Shown here one piece after another: positions 3,556-51,592 of a DNA stretch of 64,000 nt. The DNA lies in NCBI RefSeq assembly GCF_008365275.1, contig NZ_CP043504.1:1922001-1986000 (forward strand), in the 5' to 3' direction. Origin of the DNA: Protaetiibacter larvae. Lineage in GTDB: Bacteria > Actinomycetota > Actinomycetes > Actinomycetales > Microbacteriaceae. Numbering within the stretch: the stretch's first letter is position 1; each line of letters begins with the position of its first letter. The position numbers and the translations under genes were made by a program. Under the pieces are notes generated by a model, which had not been told where the DNA came from, searched no databases, and saw only the letters and a program-made list of their open reading frames with translations.

Positions 3556-6500
3556 TCACCGCACCCGGATGCTCGTCACCTCCACGGGGATGGTGCTGAT
3601 GGCATCCGAGCGCAGGGTCGCGCTCGTCGACCAGGTGCCGCGGATGAGCCCCTTGACCGTGTAGTCGAAGGTGACCGCGCCGCCCGCGGTGGGCGGGCTC
3701 GTGTGGAGCAGATAGGCCTTGTCGGTGTCGACGTCGGCCACCGTGATCCCGCTCGTGCCGTCGCGGTTCTCGGCGCCGGTCAGCGCGCCGACCGAGGCGT
3801 CGGGCGTGAGCGGCCCGCCGTAGGTGACCCAGGCGTTCTCGGTGGCGCCGAGCTGGATCCACACCTGGAAGGAGTTGGCGCCTCCCCCGCTCCACACCGG
3901 CACGTCCTCCCAGTCGACGACGAGCCAGGTGGTCACGCCGTCGCTCAGGGTCGCGACGCGGATGGCGCCTCCGCCGCCCGGGTTGAGGTCCGTCCAGAAC
4001 GGCGCGATCACGTTGTTCGGTCGTGCGGCGTCGGGGAAAGCCGCCGGCGGCTCGAACTCGACGTCCGCCGAGGTGCCGCCGCCGATCACCACGTAGCCGT
4101 TGGAGACCACGCCGATGCTGCTGTACACCTCACCGCCGTACACGAAGCTCGGCACGGTGAAGTTGACGATGCTCTCGTCGCCCACACCCGCGACCGGGGT
4201 GATCCCGTACCCGGAGAGCGGGTCGTAGCCGCTCACCACCTCCGCCGGGTCGACCGCGTCGATCGCATCGATGGTCGGCGGGAGCGCACCGGTGAGCGTG
4301 CCCTTCCAGTTCGCCCCGAGGGCGCGCTTGGTGGCGGGCGCGGTCACCTTCGTCACCTGCAGCAGCGGGTTGGCGATCACGTCGATGGTCGCCTGCACGT
4401 CGACGGGCAGCGTGCTCGACGCCGTCACGGTGCAGGTCGAGATCTTGCCCCTGTCGATCGTGGTCGGCGCGCACGATTGGGCGAGCGCGAGCGAGGCCTC
4501 ACCCACGTTCACGGCGACCGGGATCACCACCGGGAGCGCGCCGCTGCGCGATCCGCTGATGGTCAGCTGCCCCTGGTGCCAGCCGTCTGCCGCCTTCACC
4601 CCGCTCACGATGATCGTGAGCTTCTTGGACGCCCCTGCGCCGAGCGTGAACCGCGCCGGGGTCACGAGCGCCTGGACGCCGTCGGCGAGCGTCGCCTTCA
4701 CGGTGAAGGTCTGGCTCGCGCCGCTGACGTTCGTGACGGTGCGCGTGACGACGGCCGCGCCCGGGAGCGGATCGATGTAAATGCTCGGGATGTTGAGGTC
4801 GATCCGGCCGAGCGGGTCGCCCGCGCTCTCGACGAAGTCCGCGGCCGTCTCGCTGATGGTGAGGGTCGGCGTGACCGCGCGGTTGGCGCGGATGCTGCCG
4901 GCGCCGCGGTCGAAGACGCCGGCCGCCGAGCCGTCCGGGTTGACGACCGACTGCAGCGACGAGGTCATGAGCGCCGACTTCACCTGCCCCGGCGTCCAGT
5001 CCGGGTGGGCCGCGATAAGGAGCGCGGAGACCCCGGCCGCGTGCGGCGACGACATCGAGGTGCCGGCGATCGCCTGGAAGAGCTCACCCTGCGGCCCGGT
5101 CGCGGGATCCGTCGATTCGGGCGTGTGCCCGGCGAGGATCTGCACGCCCGGGGCGGTGACGTCCGGCTTCAGGAACTCGCCGATCGGCCCGCGCGAGGAG
5201 AATCCCGCCATCACGTCGCCCGCGGCGGCCGAGGTGGTGCCCGCGGCCCAGCTCGCGGTGACCCCCGGGTGCGCGCCGAGGAAGGCGAGCAGCTCCGCGT
5301 TGGGACCTTCGAGATGGATCGCCGGGAGGAAGTGGTTGTCGGTCTCGACATCGCTCGCCGTGGGGTTGTAGAGGATGAACCCGGCGGCGTCGCCCTGCAA
5401 GGCGTTGAAGCCCTTCTCGACGCGGCCGTTCTGCCCGCGTTCGCACACGACCACCTGGCCGGTGAGCGATCCGGCGGGGAACGGCTGGAGGCAGAGGGGA
5501 CCGCCGCCGTATCCCGGTACGGCGGCGGCCAGCACGACGGGTAGACCCGAGACGCCCTGCGTGAGGGTCGAGCCCGACTTGCTGAAGCTCGCACCGTCGC
5601 TCGAGGTGAGGGTGAGGGTCGAGGAGAACTGCCGATCGAAGGTCGATGCGGCGACGGTGGTCACCCACGGCGCCGCGTGGTTCGCCGTGGAGGCGCCGGG
5701 TCCGTCGTTCCCCGCGGAGGCGTTCACGGTGATCCCCGCCGCGTAGGCGTCCAGGAAGGCCAGCCCGACGGCGTCGGTGTACACCGAGGCGCTGCCGCTG
5801 ATCGAGTAGTTGATGACGTCGACGCCGTCGACGATCGCCTGCTGCACCGCGTCGAGCAGATCCGAGGTGTAGCCGCCGCCCGGACCGAGTGCGCGGTAGG
5901 CGATGACGGATGCCCCGGGGGCGATCCCGCTGACCGGGCCGCGGTCCACGCCGAAGATGGGCGCGCTGGTCACGTAGTCGCCCACCGCGGTCGTGGCGGT
6001 GTGCGTGCCGTGCCCCTCCGAGTCGCGGGCCGAGCAGCCGTCCGCGGAGCAGAAGTCCTCGGCGCCGATCTCGTTGAGTGCCGCGTAGGTGTCGAGGAAG
6101 GCGTAGGCGCCCACGAGCTTGTCGTTGCAGCTGAAGGCGGGGTCGCCGCCGTCGCCGAACTCGCACGCCCATGGTCCACCCGCCGGGGCGGGGATGCCGT
6201 TGTCGGCGAGCATCGGATGCTCCGGCCAGATGCCCGTGTCGATGACGCCCACGATCACGCCGCGTCCCGCCTTGTCGCGGCCGCCGAGCGACGGCCACAC
6301 GGCGTCCGCGCCGATGAAGGTGCTCGCGTCGTTGTCGATCGCGGCTCCGGCCGCAGCCGCGCCGACCGCCGCGCTCCCCGCCGGGGTGAACCCGGACGAG
6401 GCACCCGTGTCGGACGCCGGCAGCTGGCGCAGCGAGTTGTCCTGGACGGCGGCGACACCCGGGACCGCGAGCACCTTCCGCGCGTCGCGCGCGGCGACCG

Positions 6501-6960
6501 TGAGGGCCAGGCCCCCGTACGCGACCGCGTAGCTCGCGAGCGGTTTCGCGGAGGGCACCGCCCCCAGGATGTCCGCCTGCGTGCTCGCGATGACCTCCTT
6601 CACGTGGGCGAGGTAGCGCGCCACCGCGGGGTCGCTGAGCGACAGCTTCGTGCCGGTGACCTCGGGACTCGTCGCCGGGAACCCGTCGAGACCGCCCGCG
6701 TAGGAGGCGACCGGGTCCACGTCGACCTTCACCATGATCGGCACGACCGCGGCGTCGGCGCGCGCGAGCACGGCCTCGTCGCTCTGCGCGAGCCGCCCGG
6801 TCTTGCTGCGGGCGCCCTCCTGGGGCGGGTCGCTCGGGGTGACGGCTGCCGCCTGGAGGGCGGGACCGGGGTCCGCGGCGAACGCGGGGGCACCGATGCC
6901 CGAGAGGATGAGCGCCGAGACGGCGACGGTGGACACGAGCACAGATCGACGAAGACTCAC
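3556..6960 (-). CDS. Secreted S8 family serine peptidase (subtilase) with PA domain
   Basis: This 1134-residue exported protease has a Sec signal peptide (residues 1-28, ending APAFA-A). Then comes an inhibitor-I9-like propeptide (about 70-178) and a subtilisin domain with the full triad: Asp241 in VIDTGIWPEHP, His317 in EGHGTHTA and Ser635 in GTSMSSPHAAG. The oxyanion Asn is in NASAGNDGPG. A protease-associated domain is inserted at about 445-585. After the catalytic domain come Fn3-like beta-rich modules and a C-terminal domain of about 300 residues. No LPXTG or transmembrane anchor is visible, so it is probably released. The GTG start has a GGAGGGGA ribosome-binding site. It interrupts the usual thrS-HIT-pdxS-pdxT order. 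Confidence 0.92.
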   Translation of the reverse strand: MSLRRSVLVSTVAVSALILSGIGAPAFAADPGPALQAAAVTPSDPPQEGARSKTGRLAQSDEAVLARADAAVVPIMVKVDVDPVASYAGGLDGFPATSPEVTGTKLSLSDPAVARYLAHVKEVIASTQADILGAVPSAKPLASYAVAYGGLALTVAARDARKVLAVPGVAAVQDNSLRQLPASDTGASSGFTPAGSAAVGAAAAGAAIDNDASTFIGADAVWPSLGGRDKAGRGVIVGVIDTGIWPEHPMLADNGIPAPAGGPWACEFGDGGDPAFSCNDKLVGAYAFLDTYAALNEIGAEDFCSADGCSARDSEGHGTHTATTAVGDYVTSAPIFGVDRGPVSGIAPGASVIAYRALGPGGGYTSDLLDAVQQAIVDGVDVINYSISGSASVYTDAVGLAFLDAYAAGITVNASAGNDGPGASTANHAAPWVTTVAASTFDRQFSSTLTLTSSDGASFSKSGSTLTQGVSGLPVVLAAAVPGYGGGPLCLQPFPAGSLTGQVVVCERGQNGRVEKGFNALQGDAAGFILYNPTASDVETDNHFLPAIHLEGPNAELLAFLGAHPGVTASWAAGTTSAAAGDVMAGFSSRGPIGEFLKPDVTAPGVQILAGHTPESTDPATGPQGELFQAIAGTSMSSPHAAGVSALLIAAHPDWTPGQVKSALMTSSLQSVVNPDGSAAGVFDRGAGSIRANRAVTPTLTISETAADFVESAGDPLGRIDLNIPSIYIDPLPGAAVVTRTVTNVSGASQTFTVKATLADGVQALVTPARFTLGAGASKKLTIIVSGVKAADGWHQGQLTISGSRSGALPVVIPVAVNVGEASLALAQSCAPTTIDRGKISTCTVTASSTLPVDVQATIDVIANPLLQVTKVTAPATKRALGANWKGTLTGALPPTIDAIDAVDPAEVVSGYDPLSGYGITPVAGVGDESIVNFTVPSFVYGGEVYSSIGVVSNGYVVIGGGTSADVEFEPPAAFPDAARPNNVIAPFWTDLNPGGGGAIRVATLSDGVTTWLVVDWEDVPVWSGGGANSFQVWIQLGATENAWVTYGGPLTPDASVGALTGAENRDGTSGITVADVDTDKAYLLHTSPPTAGGAVTFDYTVKGLIRGTWSTSATLRSDAISTIPVEVTSIRVR

Positions 6961-10783: not shown

Positions 10784-10858
10784 TGGTGGGCGATACTGGG
10801 ATCGAACCAGTGACCTCTTCCGTGTCAGGGAAGCGCGCTACCGCTGCGCCAATCGCCC
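10784..10858 (-). tRNA. tRNA-Val (anticodon GAC)
   Basis: The minus strand folds into a 75-nt cloverleaf with acceptor stem GGGCGAT/ATCGCCC, anticodon stem CTTCC/GGAAG and loop CTGACAC. This gives anticodon GAC, reading GUC and GUU valine codons. The T arm has the GGTTCGATCCC core. The 3' CCA is encoded. It is the last gene of a minus-strand group Gly-Cys-Val ended by a hairpin. Confidence 0.96.
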
Positions 10859-10891
10859 GTGTCGATCGCCGGGGCTCTCGATTCGGGAGTG

Positions 10892-10962
10892 AGGTGGCGA
10901 CGGGATTCGAACCCGTGTGGACGGCTTTGCAGGCCGCTGCCTCGCCTCTCGGCCACGCCACC
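10892..10962 (-). tRNA. tRNA-Cys (anticodon GCA)
   Basis: A 71-nt cloverleaf on the minus strand has acceptor stem GGTGGCG/CGCCACC, anticodon loop CTGCAAA (GCA) and the U73 discriminator expected for tRNA-Cys. CCA is not encoded. Confidence 0.95.
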
Positions 10963-11014
10963 AGGTGTGCGGCCCAGTGGCCGGAAATCCGGTGGACCGT
11001 GAGGCTTTACCTCG

Positions 11015-11087
11015 AGCGGATGACGAGACTCGAACTCGCGACCCTCACCTTGGCAAGGTGATGCGCTACCAACTGCGCTACATCCGC
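11015..11087 (-). tRNA. tRNA-Gly (anticodon GCC)
   Basis: A 73-nt cloverleaf on the minus strand has acceptor stem GCGGATG/CATCCGC and anticodon stem TCACC/GGTGA with loop TTGCCAA, giving anticodon GCC. The discriminator is U and CCA is not encoded. It heads the minus-strand tRNA group. Confidence 0.95.
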
Positions 11088-11198
11088 ATGCCCGCCTCGC
11101 GGCGTGCGTGTTCGACTGTAGCCCATCCTCGCGCGGTGTCCAAACCGGCCGCGCCGTGTGACGGAGCACCCCGGCGGGTGTGGCAAGATGGTCGTCGC

Positions 11199-11274
11199 GG
11201 GCGATTGGCGCAGTTGGTAGCGCGCTTCCTTCACACGGAAGAGGTCATCAGTTCGAGTCTGGTATCGCCCACCA
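11199..11274 (+). tRNA. tRNA-Val (anticodon CAC)
   Basis: A 76-nt cloverleaf has the same acceptor stem (GGGCGAT/ATCGCCC), D arm and anticodon stem as the minus-strand tRNA-Val(GAC) 340 bases away, but the loop TTCACAC gives anticodon CAC for GUG codons. CCA is encoded. Its last base (11274) touches the stop codon of the convergent membrane-protein gene, so no terminator can lie between them. The tRNA transcript must run into the antisense of that gene or be trimmed. Confidence 0.96.
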
Positions 11275-42155: not shown

Positions 42156-43714
42156 AACGCCGAGATCCGCGCCAGCTTGCCTGCGTCCTCGTACAGCCAC
42201 ACCTCCTGGGTGGCGCTGCACGCGACGACGCGGTCGGGGTCGCCGAAGCGCTCACGGATCCGCGCGGTGTCGAGCGCCGGCTCGTCTCCGCTGCCGTTGA
42301 GGTAGAAGAAGCTGCCCGCATCGGTGCGGGCGTACGCCGTGTTGGTGAGCCACTCGTGCGCGGTGCCGTCGGTGTTCAGCTGGATGAGCCGGAACGGCGT
42401 ACGCGAGGTGAGCGACAGTCGCCGCGCATCCGAGAAGGTGGCATACCCGACGGCCGAGCCGCCCGCGAGTGCATCGTCGATGCAGGCGGTCTCGGCGTTG
42501 CGATAGCCGAAGTACCGGCCCGCGCTGCCCAGATGCGGGATCGCGCCCGTCGCGAGGGCGATCACGACGATGCCCGCGAGCCCGCCCAGCAGCGCGGGAG
42601 ACACCGCGGGCATCGGCACGGCGAGCAGCACGAGCACGTACGGGAGCACGAGAGCCGGCCAGAAGTAGTAGTAGTGCGTGATCATCGCGAAGAAGGTGGC
42701 CGCGATGCCGCCGAGCGGGATGAGGCCCAGATAGACGACCGCGAGCAGTCGGCGTGCGGGAGCCCCGCCGCGCCGGCGCACCACCAGGACAGCCGCCGCG
42801 ATGGCCGCCAGCAGGCACCCGACCGCGAGCAGCGCCCCGAGGATGAGCACCACTGCCGCCGCGGGGTCGCGCAGCTGGAAGGCGTAGTACGGCCAGAGCA
42901 CCGCGAGCCGGCCGGCGAAGCGGTCCGGATCGATGTAGCTGAGGGGTGAGATCCCCTGCAGGGGCGCGAACACGAGCCGTGCCGCAGCCGCCAGCAGCAG
43001 GGTTCCGGCGACCCAGCCGACGGGGCGAAGCACGGCACGCGGGCCCGCACGCAGGATCCCGACGACGAGTGCGGCGAGAGCGCCGGGCGCCGCGAAGACG
43101 AGGGTGAGCGGGTTGGAGGCGATCGTGAGGGCGAGCGCCGCGCCGGTGAGGATCCGCACCGGCAGGGTGCGCGCGAGCAGCAGCACGGGTGCGAGCAGCA
43201 GCGCCGCGTACTCGCCGAAGTAGTAGCTGGGGGCGAGGTGGAAGGAGAGGATCCACGAGGTGCCGATGAGCGGAAGCACGAGCAGCGGCACCGTGCCGAG
43301 GAGCGCGCGCAGCACGGAGGTGCCGAGCGCGTGCTCGGGCCACAGCACGCGGACGAGTGCGAGAGCGCAGAGGAACAGCACCGCCATGTTGAGCGCAGCC
43401 ACCGCGAGGTAGTAGCCGTACACGTTCCCCGCGCTCACGGCGAAGGCGACGCCGCTGAGCGGCAGTTCCGGGAACACGTACACCTGCGGCGAGAACGACC
43501 AGTCCAGCGGGCGCCCCGCCGCGATGTCCTGGATCACCTGGAAGAGCACCCCGTTGTCGCTCGAACGCAGCTCCCAGCTGATCGGCCAGGTGTCGGCGCC
43601 GGCCGGATCGCCGCCCGCGCGGATGAGGAAGACGATCGCCGTGAGCGCGCCGACGAGCAGGGCACCGCCGGCCACGACGGCCGCCGAGCGCACGCTAGAC
43701 GTCGATGCGCCCAC
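42137..43714 (-). CDS. Hypothetical polytopic membrane protein (possible glycosyltransferase-like)
   Basis: The protein has about 525 residues if the GTG at 43714 is used (a GTG at 43693 just after the parE stop is the alternative). It has around eleven hydrophobic helices and a C-terminal soluble domain of about 130 residues. The first extracytoplasmic loop contains DTWPISWELRSSDNGVLFQV and the C-terminal domain contains CIDDALAGGSAVGYATFSDARRL. The layout resembles GT-C type membrane glycosyltransferases with a terminal sensor-like domain, but I see no clear catalytic D-D/D-E motif, so function stays open. It overlaps parE upstream by about 20 bases and parC downstream by 19. Confidence 0.75.
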   Translation of the reverse strand: MGASTSSVRSAAVVAGGALLVGALTAIVFLIRAGGDPAGADTWPISWELRSSDNGVLFQVIQDIAAGRPLDWSFSPQVYVFPELPLSGVAFAVSAGNVYGYYLAVAALNMAVLFLCALALVRVLWPEHALGTSVLRALLGTVPLLVLPLIGTSWILSFHLAPSYYFGEYAALLLAPVLLLARTLPVRILTGAALALTIASNPLTLVFAAPGALAALVVGILRAGPRAVLRPVGWVAGTLLLAAAARLVFAPLQGISPLSYIDPDRFAGRLAVLWPYYAFQLRDPAAAVVLILGALLAVGCLLAAIAAAVLVVRRRGGAPARRLLAVVYLGLIPLGGIAATFFAMITHYYYFWPALVLPYVLVLLAVPMPAVSPALLGGLAGIVVIALATGAIPHLGSAGRYFGYRNAETACIDDALAGGSAVGYATFSDARRLSLTSRTPFRLIQLNTDGTAHEWLTNTAYARTDAGSFFYLNGSGDEPALDTARIRERFGDPDRVVACSATQEVWLYEDAGKLARISAFYRGRA

Positions 43715-45770
43715 GGTCGAGGCCCTGCCCCGCGACGATGAACTCCTTCCGCGGGGCCACGTCGTTGCCCATGAGCAGCTCGAAGACCCGGTTGGCGGCG
43801 TCGGCATCCTCCACCCGCACCCGACGCAGCGTGCGATGCGCGCGACTCATGGTGGTCTCGGCCAGCTGATCCGCGTCCATCTCGCCCAGACCCTTGTAGC
43901 GCTGGATCGGATCCTGGTAGCTGCGGCCCTGCTTCTTGAGTCCGGCGAGCACCCCCTGCAGCTCGGTCTCCGAGTAGGTGTAGATGATGTCGTTGGGCTT
44001 CGATCCGGGGTTCATCGCGACGACGCGGTGCAGCGGGGGCACCGCGGCGAACACGCGCCCCTCCTCGACCATGGGTCGCATGTAACGGAAGAACAGGGTC
44101 AGCAGCAGGGTGCGGATGTGGGCGCCGTCGACGTCGGCGTCGCTCATGATGATGACCTTGCCGTAGCGGGCCGCCTCCAGGTCGAAGCTGCGGCCGGAGC
44201 CCGCGCCGATCACCTGGATGATGGACGCGCACTCGGCGTTGCCGAGCATGTCGGCCACCGAGGCCTTCTGCACGTTGAGGATCTTGCCGCGGATGGGCAG
44301 CAGCGCCTGGTGCTCGCTGTCGCGCGCGAGCTTCGCGGTGCCGAGCGCGGAGTCGCCCTCCACGATGAACAGCTCGGTATCGGCGACGTCGTTCGAACGG
44401 CAGTCGACGAGCTTGGCGGGCAGCGACGAGCTCTCGAGCGCGTTCTTGCGCCGCTGGGTCTCCTTGTGGGCGCGGGCCGAGATCCGGCTCTTCATCTCGG
44501 CGACGACCTTGTCGAGCACAAGCGAGCTCTGCGCCTTGTCGTCGCGCTTGGGACTCGCGAAGCGCTCGGTGAGCCCCTTCACGACGGCGTTCGAGACGAT
44601 CGCCCGCACCGCCGGGGTGCCGAGCACCTCCTTCGTCTGGCCCTCGAACTGCGGCTCGGGCAGGCGGACCGTGAGCACGGCCGTGAGCCCCGCGAGCACA
44701 TCATCCTTCTCGAGCTTGTCGGAGCCGGCCTTGAGCCGGCGGGCGTTCTTCTCGACCTCGGCACGCAGGAACTTGAGCAGGCCCTGCTCGAAGCCCGCCT
44801 GGTGCGTGCCGCCCTTGGGCGTCGAGATGATGTTGACGAAGCTCTTGAACACGGTGTCGTAACCCGTGCCCCAGCGCAGCGCGAGGTCGACCTCGCACAC
44901 CCGGTTGAGCTCGGTGGGCACCATGTGGCCGTTCTCCTGCAGCACGGGGACCGTCTCGGTGTAGCCGCCGGATCCCTGGATGCGCCAGGTGTCGGTGACC
45001 GCGGCGTCGGAGGCGAGATGCTCGACGAACTCGCTGATGCCACCCGCGAAGCGGAAGGTCTCGGTGCTCGGCTGCTCGCCTCGCTCGTCATGGATCCGGA
45101 TGCCGAGCCCCGGCACGAGGAACGCGGTCTGCCGGGCGCGTCCGAGCAGCTCCTCGGTCTGGAATCCGGCGCCCTTCGTGAAGATCTGACGGTCGGCCCA
45201 GTAGCGCACGCGCGTGCCGGTGACGCCCTTCGCGACCCTGCCGACCTTGCGCAGCTCGCTCCCGGAGGTGAACGGCGTGAACGGGGCATCGGGGGTGGGC
45301 GCTTCGGCGTCGGCGAAGATCCCGGGCTCGCCCCGGTGGAACGACATCGCCCAGGTGACGCCGTCGCGGTCGACCTCGACGTCGAGACGCTCGGAGAGCG
45401 CGTTGACCACCGAGGCACCCACGCCGTGCAGGCCACCCGAGGCCGCATAGGAGCCGCTGCCGAACTTCCCGCCCGCGTGCAGCTTGGTGAACACGACCTC
45501 GACGCCCGTGAGCCCCGTCTTCGGCTCGATGTCGACGGGGATACCGCGGGCGCGGTCACGCACCTCGACCGAGTCGTCGGCGTGGAGCACCACGTCGATC
45601 TCGGTGCCGAAGCCCGCGAGGGCTTCGTCGACGGCGTTGTCGATGATCTCCCACACGCAATGCATGAGCCCGCGCGAGTCGGTCGAGCCGATGTACATGC
45701 CCGGGCGCTTGCGGACCGCTTCGAGTCCCTCGAGAACCGAGAGATGGCGGGCGGAGTAGTCGGTGCTCAC
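43695..45770 (-). CDS. parE: DNA topoisomerase IV subunit B
   Basis: The 691-residue ATPase subunit has the GHKL motifs WEIIDNAVDEALAG, DRARGIPVDIEPKTG and GGLHGVGASVVNALS in the N-terminal domain. A transducer domain and the TOPRIM metal motifs FIVEGDSALGTAK and IIMSDADVDGAHIRTLLLT follow. The C-terminal PGSKPNDIIYTYSETELQ and RYKGLGEMDADQLAETTM are typical. With ParC it forms topoisomerase IV. The GTG start at 45770 is six bases behind TAGGCT, so a leaderless mRNA is likely. parC is nearby but read from the other strand, an unusual split arrangement. Confidence 0.92.
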   Translation of the reverse strand: MSTDYSARHLSVLEGLEAVRKRPGMYIGSTDSRGLMHCVWEIIDNAVDEALAGFGTEIDVVLHADDSVEVRDRARGIPVDIEPKTGLTGVEVVFTKLHAGGKFGSGSYAASGGLHGVGASVVNALSERLDVEVDRDGVTWAMSFHRGEPGIFADAEAPTPDAPFTPFTSGSELRKVGRVAKGVTGTRVRYWADRQIFTKGAGFQTEELLGRARQTAFLVPGLGIRIHDERGEQPSTETFRFAGGISEFVEHLASDAAVTDTWRIQGSGGYTETVPVLQENGHMVPTELNRVCEVDLALRWGTGYDTVFKSFVNIISTPKGGTHQAGFEQGLLKFLRAEVEKNARRLKAGSDKLEKDDVLAGLTAVLTVRLPEPQFEGQTKEVLGTPAVRAIVSNAVVKGLTERFASPKRDDKAQSSLVLDKVVAEMKSRISARAHKETQRRKNALESSSLPAKLVDCRSNDVADTELFIVEGDSALGTAKLARDSEHQALLPIRGKILNVQKASVADMLGNAECASIIQVIGAGSGRSFDLEAARYGKVIIMSDADVDGAHIRTLLLTLFFRYMRPMVEEGRVFAAVPPLHRVVAMNPGSKPNDIIYTYSETELQGVLAGLKKQGRSYQDPIQRYKGLGEMDADQLAETTMSRAHRTLRRVRVEDADAANRVFELLMGNDVAPRKEFIVAGQGLDRGRIDV

Positions 45771-45819: not shown

Positions 45820-46638
45820 TCAGGAGCCGAACTGCTGCACCCAGTACAGCCGCCCGTCGCCGCCGGCGGCGGAGCAGGCGCCGTGCAGCGTGTAGCCGCC
45901 GTTCAGGATGTTGGCCCGGTGCCCGGCAGAGCCCATCCAGCCCTCGACGACCGCGCTCGCCGAGCCGTACCCCCACGCGATGTTCTCGCCCCAGCTGCTG
46001 AACCCGCCGGGGAAGCTGCTGTGCACGAAGTTGCCGGTCGCCGCCAGCTGCGACGCCCAGGTGCAGGCGTAGCTCACGAGCGTTCCGCTGCGTCCGAGGG
46101 GCGCGAGTCCGGCGGCGGCGCGGGCAGCATTCGTGTGGGTGAGCACCTCACCCGACTCCGTCCCGGCGGGTGGCGGCGGGGGCGGCGGCGGAGGCGGAGG
46201 CGGAGGAGGCGGAGCTGCCGGTGCCGCGGGCGGTGCGGCCTCCTGCTCGCCCGCGGCCGGAGGCTGGGCGGTCGGAGGCTGGGCGGCCGGCACCTCGGCG
46301 GCGGGCACCTCGGCGGCGGGCACCTCGGCGGCGGGCACCTCGGCGGCGGGCACCTTCTCACCGGGGTCGCCGTCGACCGGAGTCTCCGAGGCGGCGTCCT
46401 CGGCCCCGGCAGCGGTGTCGTCCGTGGGCACGGGGGTGGGTGTCGCCGGCACGAGCGCGGCGGCGTCGCGTGGTTCCGGGGCGGAGGTGCGGCCACCTGC
46501 ATCGACGCCGGACGCGAGGGATGCCCCCCAGGCGCCGCCGACGCCCGCGAGCAGCAGGGCGGCCCCCGCCAGCCAGGCGAGCGCGATCACGCGACCGCGC
46601 GGACGCGCGCGTGCCCCGAGCTCCCCCCAGATGCCCAT
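45820..46638 (-). CDS. Exported CAP (SCP/PR-1-like) domain protein with repeat linker
   Basis: I chose the ATG at 46638 because TACAGT ends exactly six bases upstream. The 272-residue protein has an N-terminal hydrophobic segment (about 16-42) serving as signal or anchor. A long low-complexity linker has five V-P-A-A-E/Q repeats and a run of ten or more prolines, and a C-terminal CAP domain (about 155-272) has GENIAWGYGSASAVVEGWMG and GHRANILNGGYTLHGACS. Two cysteines could pair. CAP domains outside eukaryotes are common on actinobacterial surfaces, and their substrates are mostly unknown. Confidence 0.88.
   Translation of the reverse strand: MGIWGELGARARPRGRVIALAWLAGAALLLAGVGGAWGASLASGVDAGGRTSAPEPRDAAALVPATPTPVPTDDTAAGAEDAASETPVDGDPGEKVPAAEVPAAEVPAAEVPAAEVPAAQPPTAQPPAAGEQEAAPPAAPAAPPPPPPPPPPPPPPPAGTESGEVLTHTNAARAAAGLAPLGRSGTLVSYACTWASQLAATGNFVHSSFPGGFSSWGENIAWGYGSASAVVEGWMGSAGHRANILNGGYTLHGACSAAGGDGRLYWVQQFGS
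46291..46350. repeat. Four perfect 15-bp tandem repeats in the CAP-protein linker
   Basis: CACCTCGGCGGCGGG is repeated four times without change, encoding the V-P-A-A-E repeats. A degenerate pair of another 15-base unit (46261-46290) precedes it and encodes P-P-T/A-A-Q. Copy number is likely to vary between strains by slippage. Confidence 0.9.
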
Positions 46639-46650
46639 GCGAGCACTGTA
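46639..46650 (-). promoter_or_regulatory. -10 element TACAGT of the CAP-protein gene
   Basis: TACAGT (46645-46650, minus strand) is six bases before the ATG at 46638 and decides this start over a GTG at 46662. Confidence 0.55.
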
Positions 46651-46773
46651 GAGGCCCGGCACGCCCCCGCGATATACGCGCAGAGCGAAATGCCCGGCCG
46701 CCAGCCGGAATTGTCAGCGTGGCCGTGCTTACATGGGATCACGCACCACCGAACCCGAGGGAAGGAGCAGGAC

Positions 46774-46995
46774 ATGTCACAGTTCGCAGGCGACGGCACC
46801 GTCGAGCTGGAGCGTCCGTCCCTCACCGCCCTCGATCGCTGCGACATGTGCGGCGCCCAGGCCTACGTCCGGGTGACCCTCGCCTCCGGCGAGCTGCTGT
46901 TCTGCGCGCACCACGGCGCCGAGTACAAGCCGAAGCTCATCGGCACGGCGCTCGATTGGCACGACGAGACCGATCGGCTCCTCGAGGACCGCTGA
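46774..46995 (+). CDS. DUF7455 domain-containing small zinc-binding protein
   Basis: The 73-residue protein has the pattern LTALDRCDMCGAQAYVRVTL and then LLFCAHHGAEYKPKL, giving Cys-x2-Cys and Cys-x-His-His ligands for a small zinc ribbon. This family is common in actinobacteria, often close to the principal sigma factor. The start has GAAGGAG seven bases upstream. The following ATP-grasp gene begins directly after its stop codon, so they are translationally coupled. Confidence 0.9.
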   Translation: MSQFAGDGTVELERPSLTALDRCDMCGAQAYVRVTLASGELLFCAHHGAEYKPKLIGTALDWHDETDRLLEDR

Positions 46996-48018
46996 GTGTC
47001 TGACGCCCCCGGCGGCCTCGGCCGCCGACTGCGGTATCTCGCGCGTCGCGCGGCGTCGCTCAATCCGGCCAACGTCTGGCGGATCGCCGGGGCCGCCGCC
47101 CCGTTGACGCGCAAGCCGCGGCTGCTCATCGTGGCCGACATGCTGTGGTGCGCGGTGCGCTACGAGTTCGCCTTCCAGGACTACCTCGACTGGGACGTGG
47201 TCATGCTGACCGCCGCCGAACGGCGAACCTTCATCACGCATCCGAAGTCCAACCATCTCGCGATGACGCTCAACGACCCCCAGTTGCGCCGGATCTTCGC
47301 CGACAAGCTGCAGTTCAACGCGCGCTTCGCAGAGTTCATCGGCCGCGACTGGATCGAGCTGCGCGCGAGCGACGCGGACGCCGTGCGCGCCTTCCTGGAT
47401 CGCCACGGCCGGGCCATGCTCAAGGTCCCCGACAGCCTCTCGGGCTTCGGCATCGAGAAGGTCGAGGCGTCCGAGGTCGTCGACGTCGAGGCGTTCCGCA
47501 CCCGGGCGATCGAGCGCCGGCAGTTCCTCCTCGAGGGCTATATCGTGCAGCATCCCGAGATGGCGGCGCTCTGCCCGACGAGCGTCAACTCGCTGCGCGT
47601 CATCACCTTCTTCGACGGCAGCGAGCTGAAGGTGCTCGCGAGCGTGCTCAAGATCGGCAACGGCGGCGACATCGACAACTTCTCGGGCGGCGGGATGTAC
47701 ACGATGCTCGACGACACGGGCACCGCGCACTTCGCGGCCTTCGACGGCACGGGGGCCACCTACGCCGTGCATCCGCTCTCCGGGGTGTCCATCGTGGGGT
47801 TCACGGTGCCGCTCTACGCCGAGGTGCTCACCCTCCTCGACCGAGCCGCCCGGGTGATCCCCGAGGTGCCGTACGTGGGATGGGATGTCGCGATCACCGC
47901 CACCGGTCCCGTCATCATCGAGGGCAACCCGAACTCGGGCGTCTACCAGTCCAAGCCCTCGGTCTCCGGCATCCGCGAGGGGCTGCTGCCCCGCTACCGC
48001 GCCGCGATCGGCTTCTGA
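46996..48018 (+). CDS. ATP-grasp domain protein (sugar-transfer-associated type)
   Basis: The 340-residue protein looks like the sugar-transfer-associated ATP-grasp family. MLKVPDSLSGFGIEKVEASE gives the nucleotide-binding lysine loop, FLLEGYIVQHPEMAAL the acidic loop, and CPTSVNSLRVITFFDG the family hallmark. GWDVAITATGPVIIEGNPNSG holds the Mg-binding Asp/Glu/Asn. ATP-grasp enzymes join a carboxylate to an amine or thiol through an acyl phosphate. Members are associated with cell-surface polymer loci. It starts with GTG right after the DUF7455 stop and ends one base before the convergent GatD-like gene. A cell-wall role is plausible but inferred. Confidence 0.82.
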   Translation: MSDAPGGLGRRLRYLARRAASLNPANVWRIAGAAAPLTRKPRLLIVADMLWCAVRYEFAFQDYLDWDVVMLTAAERRTFITHPKSNHLAMTLNDPQLRRIFADKLQFNARFAEFIGRDWIELRASDADAVRAFLDRHGRAMLKVPDSLSGFGIEKVEASEVVDVEAFRTRAIERRQFLLEGYIVQHPEMAALCPTSVNSLRVITFFDGSELKVLASVLKIGNGGDIDNFSGGGMYTMLDDTGTAHFAAFDGTGATYAVHPLSGVSIVGFTVPLYAEVLTLLDRAARVIPEVPYVGWDVAITATGPVIIEGNPNSGVYQSKPSVSGIREGLLPRYRAAIGF

Positions 48019-48019
48019 C

Positions 48020-48778
48020 TCAGCGCGCGAGGCGCTCGGCGGGATGCCAGCGGCGCTCGTCCCGGAAGTCGGCGAGACGCGCCTCGTAGGCGGCGACCGC
48101 GAGCGTCTCGTGGGCGAGGACGGGCTCCGCGTCCGGGGCGATCGCGGCGACGAGTGCGCGCGTGTAGTGCGGGTTCGTGACGAGCAGCGGACCGATGAGC
48201 GAGGTCCCGACGAAGTTCTCGCGCCGGACGCCCTCGACGGCGGTGCGCGTGTTGCGGCCGATGCCCCGATCCGCGACGAGGAAGCCGGGGAGCGCCTCGT
48301 CGGCGGTCACCATCGAGAACTGCGACTTGTAGCCCACGATCGGCTGGGAGGCCGGCAGCTCGGGCACCGCGCCGATCACCTTGCCGTTGTAGCGCTCGAA
48401 CATCCGCAGCGTCGCCTCGAGCTCGAACACCCCGACGCCGGCGACGTCGTAGCCCATCTCGTCGTTGCGGATGCGCGTGCCGAGCACCTCGAGGGCGTTG
48501 TGGGTGAAGAGGAACCGCTGACCCGCGTCGATCGCCGCGGCGATGCGATCGCGATGCGGGCGCAGGCGGTCGATCGCCGTGAGCTGTCCACGCTCGGTGA
48601 GTGGGCCGAGGTAGACCAGGCCCACTTCGCGGTCGAGGAACGCCGGTCGGTCGCCGAGCCCCGTTCGGATGAGCTCGGCACCCGGCAGGGACTGCGCGAG
48701 ATAGCTGATGTTGGCGTTGTCGCCGTGCAGATTGGCGATCTCGGGGAAGAGCAGCTCGATGCTCGGCGCGCCGCTCAC
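48020..48778 (-). CDS. GatD-like class I glutamine amidotransferase fold protein lacking the catalytic Cys and His
   Basis: The 252-residue protein has the GatD/CobQ-like amidotransferase fold and is translationally coupled (GTGA overlap) to a MurT-like ligase, the arrangement of the lipid II isoglutaminyl synthase MurT-GatD. The N-terminal LFPEIANLHGDNANI mirrors the GatD opening. However, the nucleophile-elbow segment reads FLFTHNALEVLG, with His93 where the family has the catalytic Cys. The later GTSLIGPLLVTNPHY has Ile195 where GTYLHGPLL-type sequences have the catalytic His. Glutaminase activity is therefore unlikely. It may be a structural or nucleophile-delivering partner. Confidence 0.85.
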   Translation of the reverse strand: MSGAPSIELLFPEIANLHGDNANISYLAQSLPGAELIRTGLGDRPAFLDREVGLVYLGPLTERGQLTAIDRLRPHRDRIAAAIDAGQRFLFTHNALEVLGTRIRNDEMGYDVAGVGVFELEATLRMFERYNGKVIGAVPELPASQPIVGYKSQFSMVTADEALPGFLVADRGIGRNTRTAVEGVRRENFVGTSLIGPLLVTNPHYTRALVAAIAPDAEPVLAHETLAVAAYEARLADFRDERRWHPAERLAR

Positions 48779-50157
48779 GACGATGCTCCGGCTCGTTCGG
48801 CAAGGCGCTCCCGCAGTCGCCGCTGCACGGCGTCGCCGGTCGTGAGCGCGTTGTGGACGCTGTGCAGGTTGAACACCACCGCGGTGCCGTCGAGGTCGAG
48901 CAGCTCCGCGGGCTCCGTCTCGGACGCGACCGTCACGATCCGCGCGGGGTCGACACCCGCGATCGCGAGCCGCAGGGCCTGATCGTGCCGCCGCACTCCC
49001 CCGACCACGATCTGGGCGATCGAGTCGTCGGCGAGGTACTCGTAGTCGGCGTCGTAGATCCACGCGGTGTTCTCGACCTCGGTCTCCCGCTCGCTCCACT
49101 CGTCGATCGAGAGCGCCACCGTCTTGCGTCCCCCGAAGGAGGCGAGGTACTCGAAGGCCCGTGAGCAGGCGACACCGACGAGGCCCTTCGTGAGCAGCCG
49201 CACGAGCGCGACCTCGCCGATGCGCTCAGCGGCGAAGCGCGTCGTCGGCGGGCGCAGCCGATCGAACGCGGCCACGATGCGCTCGCGGGGCACCCCGAGC
49301 ACGTCGAGGGCGGCCGCCACCGCGACCTCGTTGTAGACGTTGACGATGTTGTCGTTGATGAGGTGGGCGCTGCGCGCATCGCCGTCGAAGGCGAGCGTCA
49401 CGCGCGAGCGCTCGGTGTCGAGATCGCGCGCGAGATGGTCGGCCTCGGGCGAGCGGAAGCCGCACGCCGGGCAGTGCACCTTGCCGATGTGGTTGAAGCG
49501 CCAGAAATCCCAGTCGAGCGTGGTCTCGCACACCGGGCAGATCGCCACGTCCACGGCGGTGCCCGTCGGGCGATCGCCGTCCGTCGGCAGGCGGTCCACC
49601 CCGAAGAAGACCCGCGGGTTCGCGTCGCTGCCGAGGGACGCCGTGATGAGGTCGTCCGCATTGAGCACGAGCGTCGTCCGCGGCCCGAGAGCCGAGGAGA
49701 GGATCCAGGCGATATAGCCCGGATGCGCGTTGCGCTTGATCGAGTCGCGCGTGAGATTGGTGCACACGAGCACGTCGGGGTCGAGCCCCGGCAGCACGAG
49801 CTTGCCGGAGCGCTCGTCGAGCTCGAGCACCGCGATGTCGGCCCGCGGGCGCCCGGTCCAGGTCACCGCGCCGATGAGGGTCGCGGCGATCCCCGCGGCG
49901 AGGTTGGAGCCGTTTCGGTTGCTCGCCACGACGAGCCCCTCACCCGTGAGCGCCTCCGCGAGCAGATTCGAGACGGTCGTCTTGCCGTTCGTGCCCGTGA
50001 CGGCGACGACCTGCGCCGGATGCCGGATGGCCCCGATGATGCCCGGGTGCAGGCGGCGCGCCACGCGTCCGGGCACGTGCGTGCCCGCCCGGCCGACGGC
50101 CCTCAGAGCGAGGGCGGTGAGCTTCGTCGCCCAGATCGCCAGGAGGACCCGCACCAC
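48775..50157 (-). CDS. MurT-like Mur ligase family protein (DUF1727 C-terminal domain)
   Basis: The 460-residue protein has the Mur-ligase core: the P-loop VAVTGTNGKTT (54-61), LELDER and TNLTRDS segments, and a four-cysteine ribbon (C207, C210, C229, C232) within CPVCETTLDWD and HCPACGF, as in MurT. The C-terminal DUF1727 region contains NTAWIYDADYEYL. MurT activates the alpha-carboxyl of D-Glu in lipid II. Here residues 321-328 (LLTKGLVG) and 350-364 (the DEWSERETEVEN stretch) differ from the MurT pattern I know (K-N-P-x-G and N-x-x-A-D-G-R-D). A GTG at 50154 is an equally possible start. It lies eight bases after the sigma-factor stop, so it is probably co-transcribed. Confidence 0.85.
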   Translation of the reverse strand: MVRVLLAIWATKLTALALRAVGRAGTHVPGRVARRLHPGIIGAIRHPAQVVAVTGTNGKTTVSNLLAEALTGEGLVVASNRNGSNLAAGIAATLIGAVTWTGRPRADIAVLELDERSGKLVLPGLDPDVLVCTNLTRDSIKRNAHPGYIAWILSSALGPRTTLVLNADDLITASLGSDANPRVFFGVDRLPTDGDRPTGTAVDVAICPVCETTLDWDFWRFNHIGKVHCPACGFRSPEADHLARDLDTERSRVTLAFDGDARSAHLINDNIVNVYNEVAVAAALDVLGVPRERIVAAFDRLRPPTTRFAAERIGEVALVRLLTKGLVGVACSRAFEYLASFGGRKTVALSIDEWSERETEVENTAWIYDADYEYLADDSIAQIVVGGVRRHDQALRLAIAGVDPARIVTVASETEPAELLDLDGTAVVFNLHSVHNALTTGDAVQRRLRERLAERAGASS

Positions 50158-50164
50158 CGCCGGC

Positions 50165-51592
<1,428 letters not shown>

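Follow-up and report, generated by a model that had tools for sequence, protein, structure and literature searches.

The window, the 64,000-nucleotide stretch of Protaetiibacter larvae DNA analysed here, carries adjacent murT-like and gatD-like genes in an interval between two conserved genes, which we take from their sequences to encode RpoD and a ParE/GyrB-like topoisomerase subunit. This interval, called the slot below, and its borders contain the following features.

43698..45770, minus strand: ParE/GyrB-like topoisomerase subunit; the conserved far border of the slot
46774..46995, plus strand: conserved 73-aa protein at the slot edge, presumably DUF7455; the marker for the scan of named loci
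46996..48018, plus strand: ATP-grasp ligase (PF14397, 142.9 bits), convergent with gatD
48020..48778, minus strand: GatD-like protein without the glutaminase triad (GTG start, 252 aa; NCBIfam, HMMER)
48775..50157, minus strand: MurT-like ligase of the window type, "B", in the zinc-ribbon lineage (460 aa; PF08353 MurT_C, 58 bits; PF08245)
50165..51592, minus strand: principal sigma factor RpoD; the conserved upstream border of the slot

The murT stop and the gatD start overlap in TCGTGA. The window MurT contains the Mur ligase middle and MurT_C domains and matches S. aureus MurT with 160 bits in HMMER; against its NCBIfam equivalog, it scores 168 bits (cut-off 800). A Pfam scan of the window GatD gave zero matches, while NCBIfam and HMMER both matched it; it has the GatD fold and scores 24 bits against NF045636, far under the NCBIfam cut-off of 400. 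At the search thresholds used, the complete genome holds no second, canonical MurT or GatD, the sole matches being the window pair, and no CofE-like gene matched at E 1e-10. Neither a racemase nor a diaminobutyrate aminotransferase gene is present at the window's locus. Beside the slot, a Pro/Ala-rich ORF (45820-46662, minus strand) has a C-terminal part that may resemble a CAP/SCP domain. Elsewhere in the window, positions 10787-11271 hold a cluster of four tRNAs, three on the minus strand and one on the plus strand.

MurT-GatD ordinarily adds ammonia to the alpha-carboxyl of D-Glu2 of lipid II. In a 97-row MAFFT alignment, His-93 of the window GatD (codon 48502-48500) aligns with Cys-94 of S. 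aureus GatD, and Ile-195 (codon 48196-48194) aligns with His-189. HMMER comparison with S. aureus GatD (5n9m, 6gs2) likewise places His-93 on the Cys of TICGGYQFLG and Ile-195 on the His of GTYLHGP, so the first-pass annotation was exact in reading these two residues in place of the catalytic Cys and His. The third residue of the putative triad is Asp-349, located in MurT, according to the accessible part of PMC6113224. Its place in the window MurT is taken by Asn-363 (codon 49071-49069). Thus, all three glutaminase triad residues are lost in the window pair: C94 to H, H189 to I, and D349 to N. The combination of His with Ile or Leu at the Cys and His places is common to all 8 window-type GatDs found in 120 genomes of the family, so these substitutions are not chance.

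The ligase half is different. In the window MurT, the P-loop (55) and the cysteine pairs of the zinc ribbon (207, 229) are preserved, as had been claimed. The two stretches picked out earlier as altered, LLTKGLVG and DEWSERETEVEN, correspond to the KNP and DNAAD regions, both replaced here: KGL (324) stands at the KNP position, and DEWSERETEVEN (352-363) replaces the loop of S. aureus from DNAAD to D349. Among 101 aligned MurTs, the D349 column is D in 55/55 canonical and 30/30 type-C proteins, N in five and M in one of the 6 window-type proteins, N and T in two divergent proteins of the family (L022 and L023), and Y, R, or F in eight relatives outside the family. The equivalents of N85, E108, and E111 are invariant across all 101 rows, and those of T60, N267, and K315 are kept in 6/6 window-type MurTs. 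Judged from the alignment, the ATP and acceptor-carboxylate site of the window MurT is intact. The type-C MurTs, which keep D349, also mostly keep KNP or QNP, and mostly have S and D at T60 and N267.

Group-B cross-linking is a classic trait in the classification of the Microbacteriaceae, the window's family. MurT was matched at E 1e-20 in 97 of 120 family genomes. Cys is absent from 81 of the 95 aligned GatDs (94 genomes), the column then reading G54 A12 H8 N3 S3 T1; the other 14 keep it, including one with a gap at the His column in the alignment, yet with a sequence that reads YLHGP. The His at the H189 place is still present in many type-C GatDs. Just a canonical, Cys-containing pair occurs in 12/120 genomes, G054 has both a canonical and a dead pair, and G066 has a canonical pair and a second MurT. 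The CofE-like profile matches 17/120 genomes, 16 of them among the 23 without MurT, so that MurT and CofE-like genes overlap in a single genome, G053, away from rpoD (Fisher p 1.3e-13, genome-wide). The remaining seven MurT-less genomes comprise G099, with a type-C fragment at a contig end, and six with neither gene. These six and the 12 canonical-only genomes make up a deep clade of the family. A dead pair or CofE is present in 102/120 genomes and absent from 18, a count that includes four pairs called dead from MurT, with GatD outside the alignment (G038, G066 for its second pair, G079, and G106), and one contig-end fragment. The window-type pair is found in 8/120 genomes; the commoner pair belongs to a different clade. 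Two divergent zinc-ribbon dead pairs were also seen in the family, L136 (G053) and L023 (G005). The G053 pair adjoins a divergent CofE-like gene away from rpoD, and the G005 pair likewise lies outside that genome's rpoD locus.

The gene order around the slot is PAC2-MFS-rpoD-[slot]-(racemase genes)-(ATP-grasp)-DUF7455-parE-parC, where the neighbor names, except for the families searched, are those we assume from the sequences. We used 112 of 139 loci, the 27 dropped having rpoD or parE not in full; four of the 112 are duplicates, leaving 108. The slot holds type C at 60 loci, a CofE-like gene at 29, type B at 8, and none of these at 15, never two together, and its content has changed at least 14 times on the RpoD+ParE tree. 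Sister genomes can differ in slot content, such as the window's genome (G000, type B) and G058 (CofE). In MurT-less genomes, the slot mostly encodes a PF01996 protein (F420_ligase, or CofE, family) with a length of about 232 aa. Four of these proteins score 45-54 bits against PF01996 (cut-off 25), and three reach 30-40 bits with TIGR01916, the CofE equivalog (cut-off 180.65). The CofE family forms amide bonds to amino acids (F420).

No such ligase was found in the slot at the deep-clade rpoD loci (10 canonical-only, 5 neither) or at the named Agrococcus locus. At these loci (L139-L154, L227), apparent ABC transporter genes occupy the slot of G049 and G119, and the Agrococcus slot has three ORFs, similar in number and size to those of G049 and G119. 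Weak ATP-grasp matches in G014 and G051 were considered as a deep-clade substitute and dropped; by eye, their neighbors resemble wall-polymer genes.

The ATP-grasp gene accompanies 27/29 CofE loci and 6/8 type-B loci but 1/60 type-C loci (Fisher p 3.5e-19, with the four duplicates removed and kinship ignored). Six supported independent pairs gave on average 5.3 for the association, 0.0 against, and 0.7 with no difference (median p 0.06). Genes of the alanine racemase family occur at 13/60 type-C, 10/29 CofE, and 0/8 type-B loci. A diaminobutyrate aminotransferase above the TIGR02407 cut-off is present at two CofE loci (G020, G057), and there is no further one among the 140 loci scanned. Paired racemase genes are seen at L088:5115-5726 + 5690-6793 and L097:6245-7853, where one ORF has the Ala_racemase C domain only and the other has a full N and a weak C domain, an arrangement that looks like a split or duplicated racemase.

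Where did the Cys-less pairs come from? In a phylum sample, the GatD profile matches 147 of 296 genomes (four of the family) at E 1e-15. We read 50 of these loci, namely the 30 top scorers and 20 others picked to cover weaker matches as far as 1e-36; matches near E 1e-17 are partial and perhaps cobyric-acid synthases. One of the 50 is of the family; Cys and His are kept in 42, and both are absent in 7. The latter come from seven genomes of two other Actinomycetota families, which probably belong to the Coriobacteriia, and have the window's motif style and zinc-ribbon MurTs. In one of these probable coriobacteria, G229, a CofE-like gene lies directly downstream of the Cys-less pair (L279:2533-3225), so MurT-GatD and CofE-like ligases may also work together. 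CofE-like genes occur in 16/296 genomes outside the family; their contexts vary in the 13 loci viewed, and thus CofE presence alone is not a marker.

In the 101-row MurT tree, which is a quick tree without bootstrap, the type-C MurTs form one clade (SH-aLRT 100) inside a ribbon-less actinobacterial lineage. The window type forms a second clade (SH-aLRT 99) with Vescimonas, the seven outside relatives, and L022 and L023, which are on long branches; this clade lies inside the zinc-ribbon lineage, where the relatives are Oscillospiraceae and probable Coriobacteriia. Since each dead clade is nested in a different canonical lineage, the tree indicates that Cys was lost at least twice. Both dead lineages sit next to rpoD in this family, and the window-type pair is a minority lineage that has spread horizontally.

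Named genera were compared through a scan with the 73-aa marker protein. Among the best 80 matches listed, 53 loci have MurT, 20 have CofE, none has both, and seven have neither, six of these without rpoD in the stretch and one being Agrococcus. The MurT loci, of which a Schumannella MAG is the one window-type case, come from Clavibacter, Rathayibacter, Leifsonia, Agromyces, Cryobacterium, Curtobacterium, Frigoribacterium, Frondihabitans, Herbiconiux, Subtercola, Agreia, Okibacterium, Plantibacter, and others. The CofE loci among these 80 come from Microbacterium (8/10 loci; one is type C and one truncated), Salinibacterium, Lacisediminihabitans, Terrimesophilobacter, Microcella/Yonghaparkia, Homoserinibacter, and Pseudolysinimonas. 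M. resistens is a Microbacterium with type C in the slot. The ATP-grasp gene is present at 18 of the 20 named CofE loci and absent with Homoserinibacter and Pseudolysinimonas. The best-scoring named kin of the window is Homoserinibacter gongjuensis, which shares 83% identity with it across the parE and rpoD stretches, and Yonghaparkia sp. Root332 is about as close.

The ribbon-less (type-C) pairs, almost always without the ATP-grasp gene, are found in genera reported to have B2 walls with a diamino acid in the bridge, explicitly so for Clavibacter; these labels are mostly genus-level (PMC9603630, PMC7033078) and not per sequenced strain. Literature listings, as far as accessible, give Subtercola as B2gamma. 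CofE together with ATP-grasp is found in Microbacterium, Salinibacterium, and Lacisediminihabitans (B1alpha), the last represented by a MAG. The contrast is weakened because Microbacterium with D-ornithine is described (PMC10757982), and Microbacterium mostly carries CofE here. The B1/B2 label by itself is not enough to tell the slot contents apart, since it would group D-ornithine Microbacterium with the type-C genera. The separator would instead be glycine in the bridge, which Microbacterium bridges contain. Leucobacter, which presumably belongs to the same deep clade as Agrococcus, is group B (PMC4804768); the slot of that clade is empty of such ligases at the loci read, and therefore group B can form without this slot. 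Outside the family, the group-B Firmicutes Erysipelothrix and Holdemania are listed as B1delta (table in PMC4062643).

What is the function of a MurT-GatD pair that has lost its glutaminase? The slot as a whole combines a constrained ligase site, at least two losses of glutaminase function, in-situ replacement by CofE, and, at some loci, nearby D-amino-acid genes, which point to one shared job. That job is best explained as the attachment of an amino acid to the D-Glu alpha-carboxyl, which would form the first bond of the group-B bridge. We suggest that the window pair is probably a MurT-GatD complex that has switched from ligating ammonia to ligating an amino acid, the first bridge residue. 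MurT would phosphorylate the alpha-carboxyl of D-Glu2 on the lipid-linked precursor, like ordinary MurT, and the acyl phosphate would react with an amino acid through its amine, so that this amino acid would become the first residue in the interpeptide bridge. GatD would no longer hydrolyze glutamine and would be retained as a partner that completes or gates the MurT site. The adjacent ATP-grasp ligase would then add a second bridge residue in this organism; its presence suggests a two-residue bridge. In this proposal, we infer which amine is donated, which carboxyl is activated, in what order the steps run, and what the dead GatD does. The retention of a dead GatD would be explained because S. 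aureus MurT-GatD still requires GatD when ammonia is supplied directly, according to the accessible part of PMC6085368. A second ligase where bridges have two residues would fit bridge chemistry as it is described for genera. The accessible parts of the open-licence literature searched name no enzyme that loads the D-Glu carboxyl in group B.

The first-pass annotation had proposed a pair using an amino acid instead of ammonia, as a route to group-B cross-links. Comparison supports this in part: the glutaminase is dead in two independent lineages, the ligase half has been conserved, a CofE-like gene can take the place of the pair in the slot, and racemase and diaminobutyrate genes lie near the slot in some relatives. 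A family-wide role for such pairs does not stand, as 16/120 genomes have CofE without MurT and 18/120 have neither a dead pair nor CofE, and the window-type pair, being rare and horizontally spread, is not the family's common one. Collinsella, in the Coriobacteriia, has a group-A wall (A4beta). The accessible part of PMC11382707 lists A4beta and cites a Collinsella paper. The window-type relatives outside the family are in organisms whose walls may be group A, and these dead relatives and the empty-slot deep clade count against our preferred explanation.

Could the pair still make ordinary isoglutamine? If MurT amidated D-Glu with free ammonia and GatD were only a scaffold, the ligase residues would be expected to be intact, as they are, and S. 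aureus MurT-GatD does use ammonia at pH 8.5, with GatD needed even then (accessible part of PMC6085368). Nevertheless, this is unlikely, since the loss occurred in two lineages of a family in which the bridge is attached to the D-Glu carboxyl, a CofE-like amide ligase replaces the pair in the slot of other genomes, and racemase or diaminobutyrate genes are present at some loci. Furthermore, G054 and G066 would then be redundant, with a dead pair and a second MurT, respectively, beside a canonical pair.

Some group-A walls, such as that of Micrococcus, have glycine on the D-Glu alpha-carboxyl without cross-linking. An amino acid ligated there as a terminal substituent would fit the related pairs in probable Coriobacteriia. 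However, the Microbacteriaceae bridge begins at this very carboxyl, and what the slot holds tracks the genus-level bridge type (PMC9603630, PMC7033078), which makes this explanation quite improbable. There is similarly little to be said for action on another carboxyl, of another stem residue or another wall polymer: the DNAAD loop, a suggested contact of the stem-peptide lysine in the accessible part of PMC6113224, is replaced, and CofE-like genes elsewhere have varied contexts, but MurT homology and the acceptor-carboxylate Asn-85 equivalent, conserved in all 101 rows, argue against it. Glutaminase activity retained through another residue is scarcely credible, as nothing positive favors it beyond His-93 being in principle a possible base, 66 of the 81 Cys-less family GatDs have Gly or Ala where the Cys would be, and D349 is also lost in the window type.

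Returning to the amino-acid ligase, a broader reading, which we put forward tentatively and hold at somewhat less than even chances, is that the rpoD-parE interval is an exchangeable cassette setting group-B bridge chemistry. Three separately evolved ligases would add the first residue, two from amidase-dead MurT-GatD lineages (the zinc-ribbon one shared with Clostridia) and one a CofE-like enzyme, with ATP-grasp added for two-residue bridges. If this is true, the number of ligases would equal the number of cytoplasmically made bridge bonds. With the cassette, the determinant of bridge chemistry could be tested directly by genetics, and the cassette would have marker value for taxonomy. A Mur ligase enabled to use amino acids by its dead amidotransferase would clearly exemplify a nucleophile switch, and attachment of an amino acid in place of ammonia could account for the unusual cell-wall cross-links of one bacterial family.

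The closest known system is the MurT-GatD isoglutaminyl synthase of S. aureus and S. pneumoniae, from which the window pair differs in having no Cys-His-Asp triad, in its changed KNP and DNAAD places, in scores far below both equivalog cut-offs, and in a genomic slot shared with other ligases. The pair of Vescimonas fastidiosa (Oscillospiraceae; WP_212820886.1, WP_212820884.1), annotated just as a Mur ligase family protein and a hypothetical protein, is in the same clade, with a MurT 39% identical over 94% of the query. Its GatD is also Cys-less, with Gly replacing the Cys and Leu replacing the His; unlike the window pair, it is not beside rpoD or parE in the 13 kb viewed. CofE (F420-0:L-glutamate ligase, PF01996) is unrelated to MurT, and the same family occupies the slot in sister genomes. 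The group-A bridge ligases, FemXAB and the ATP-grasp Aslfm, also build interpeptide bridges on the precursor, but they act on the amine of residue 3 and not, as proposed for the window pair, on the D-Glu carboxyl.
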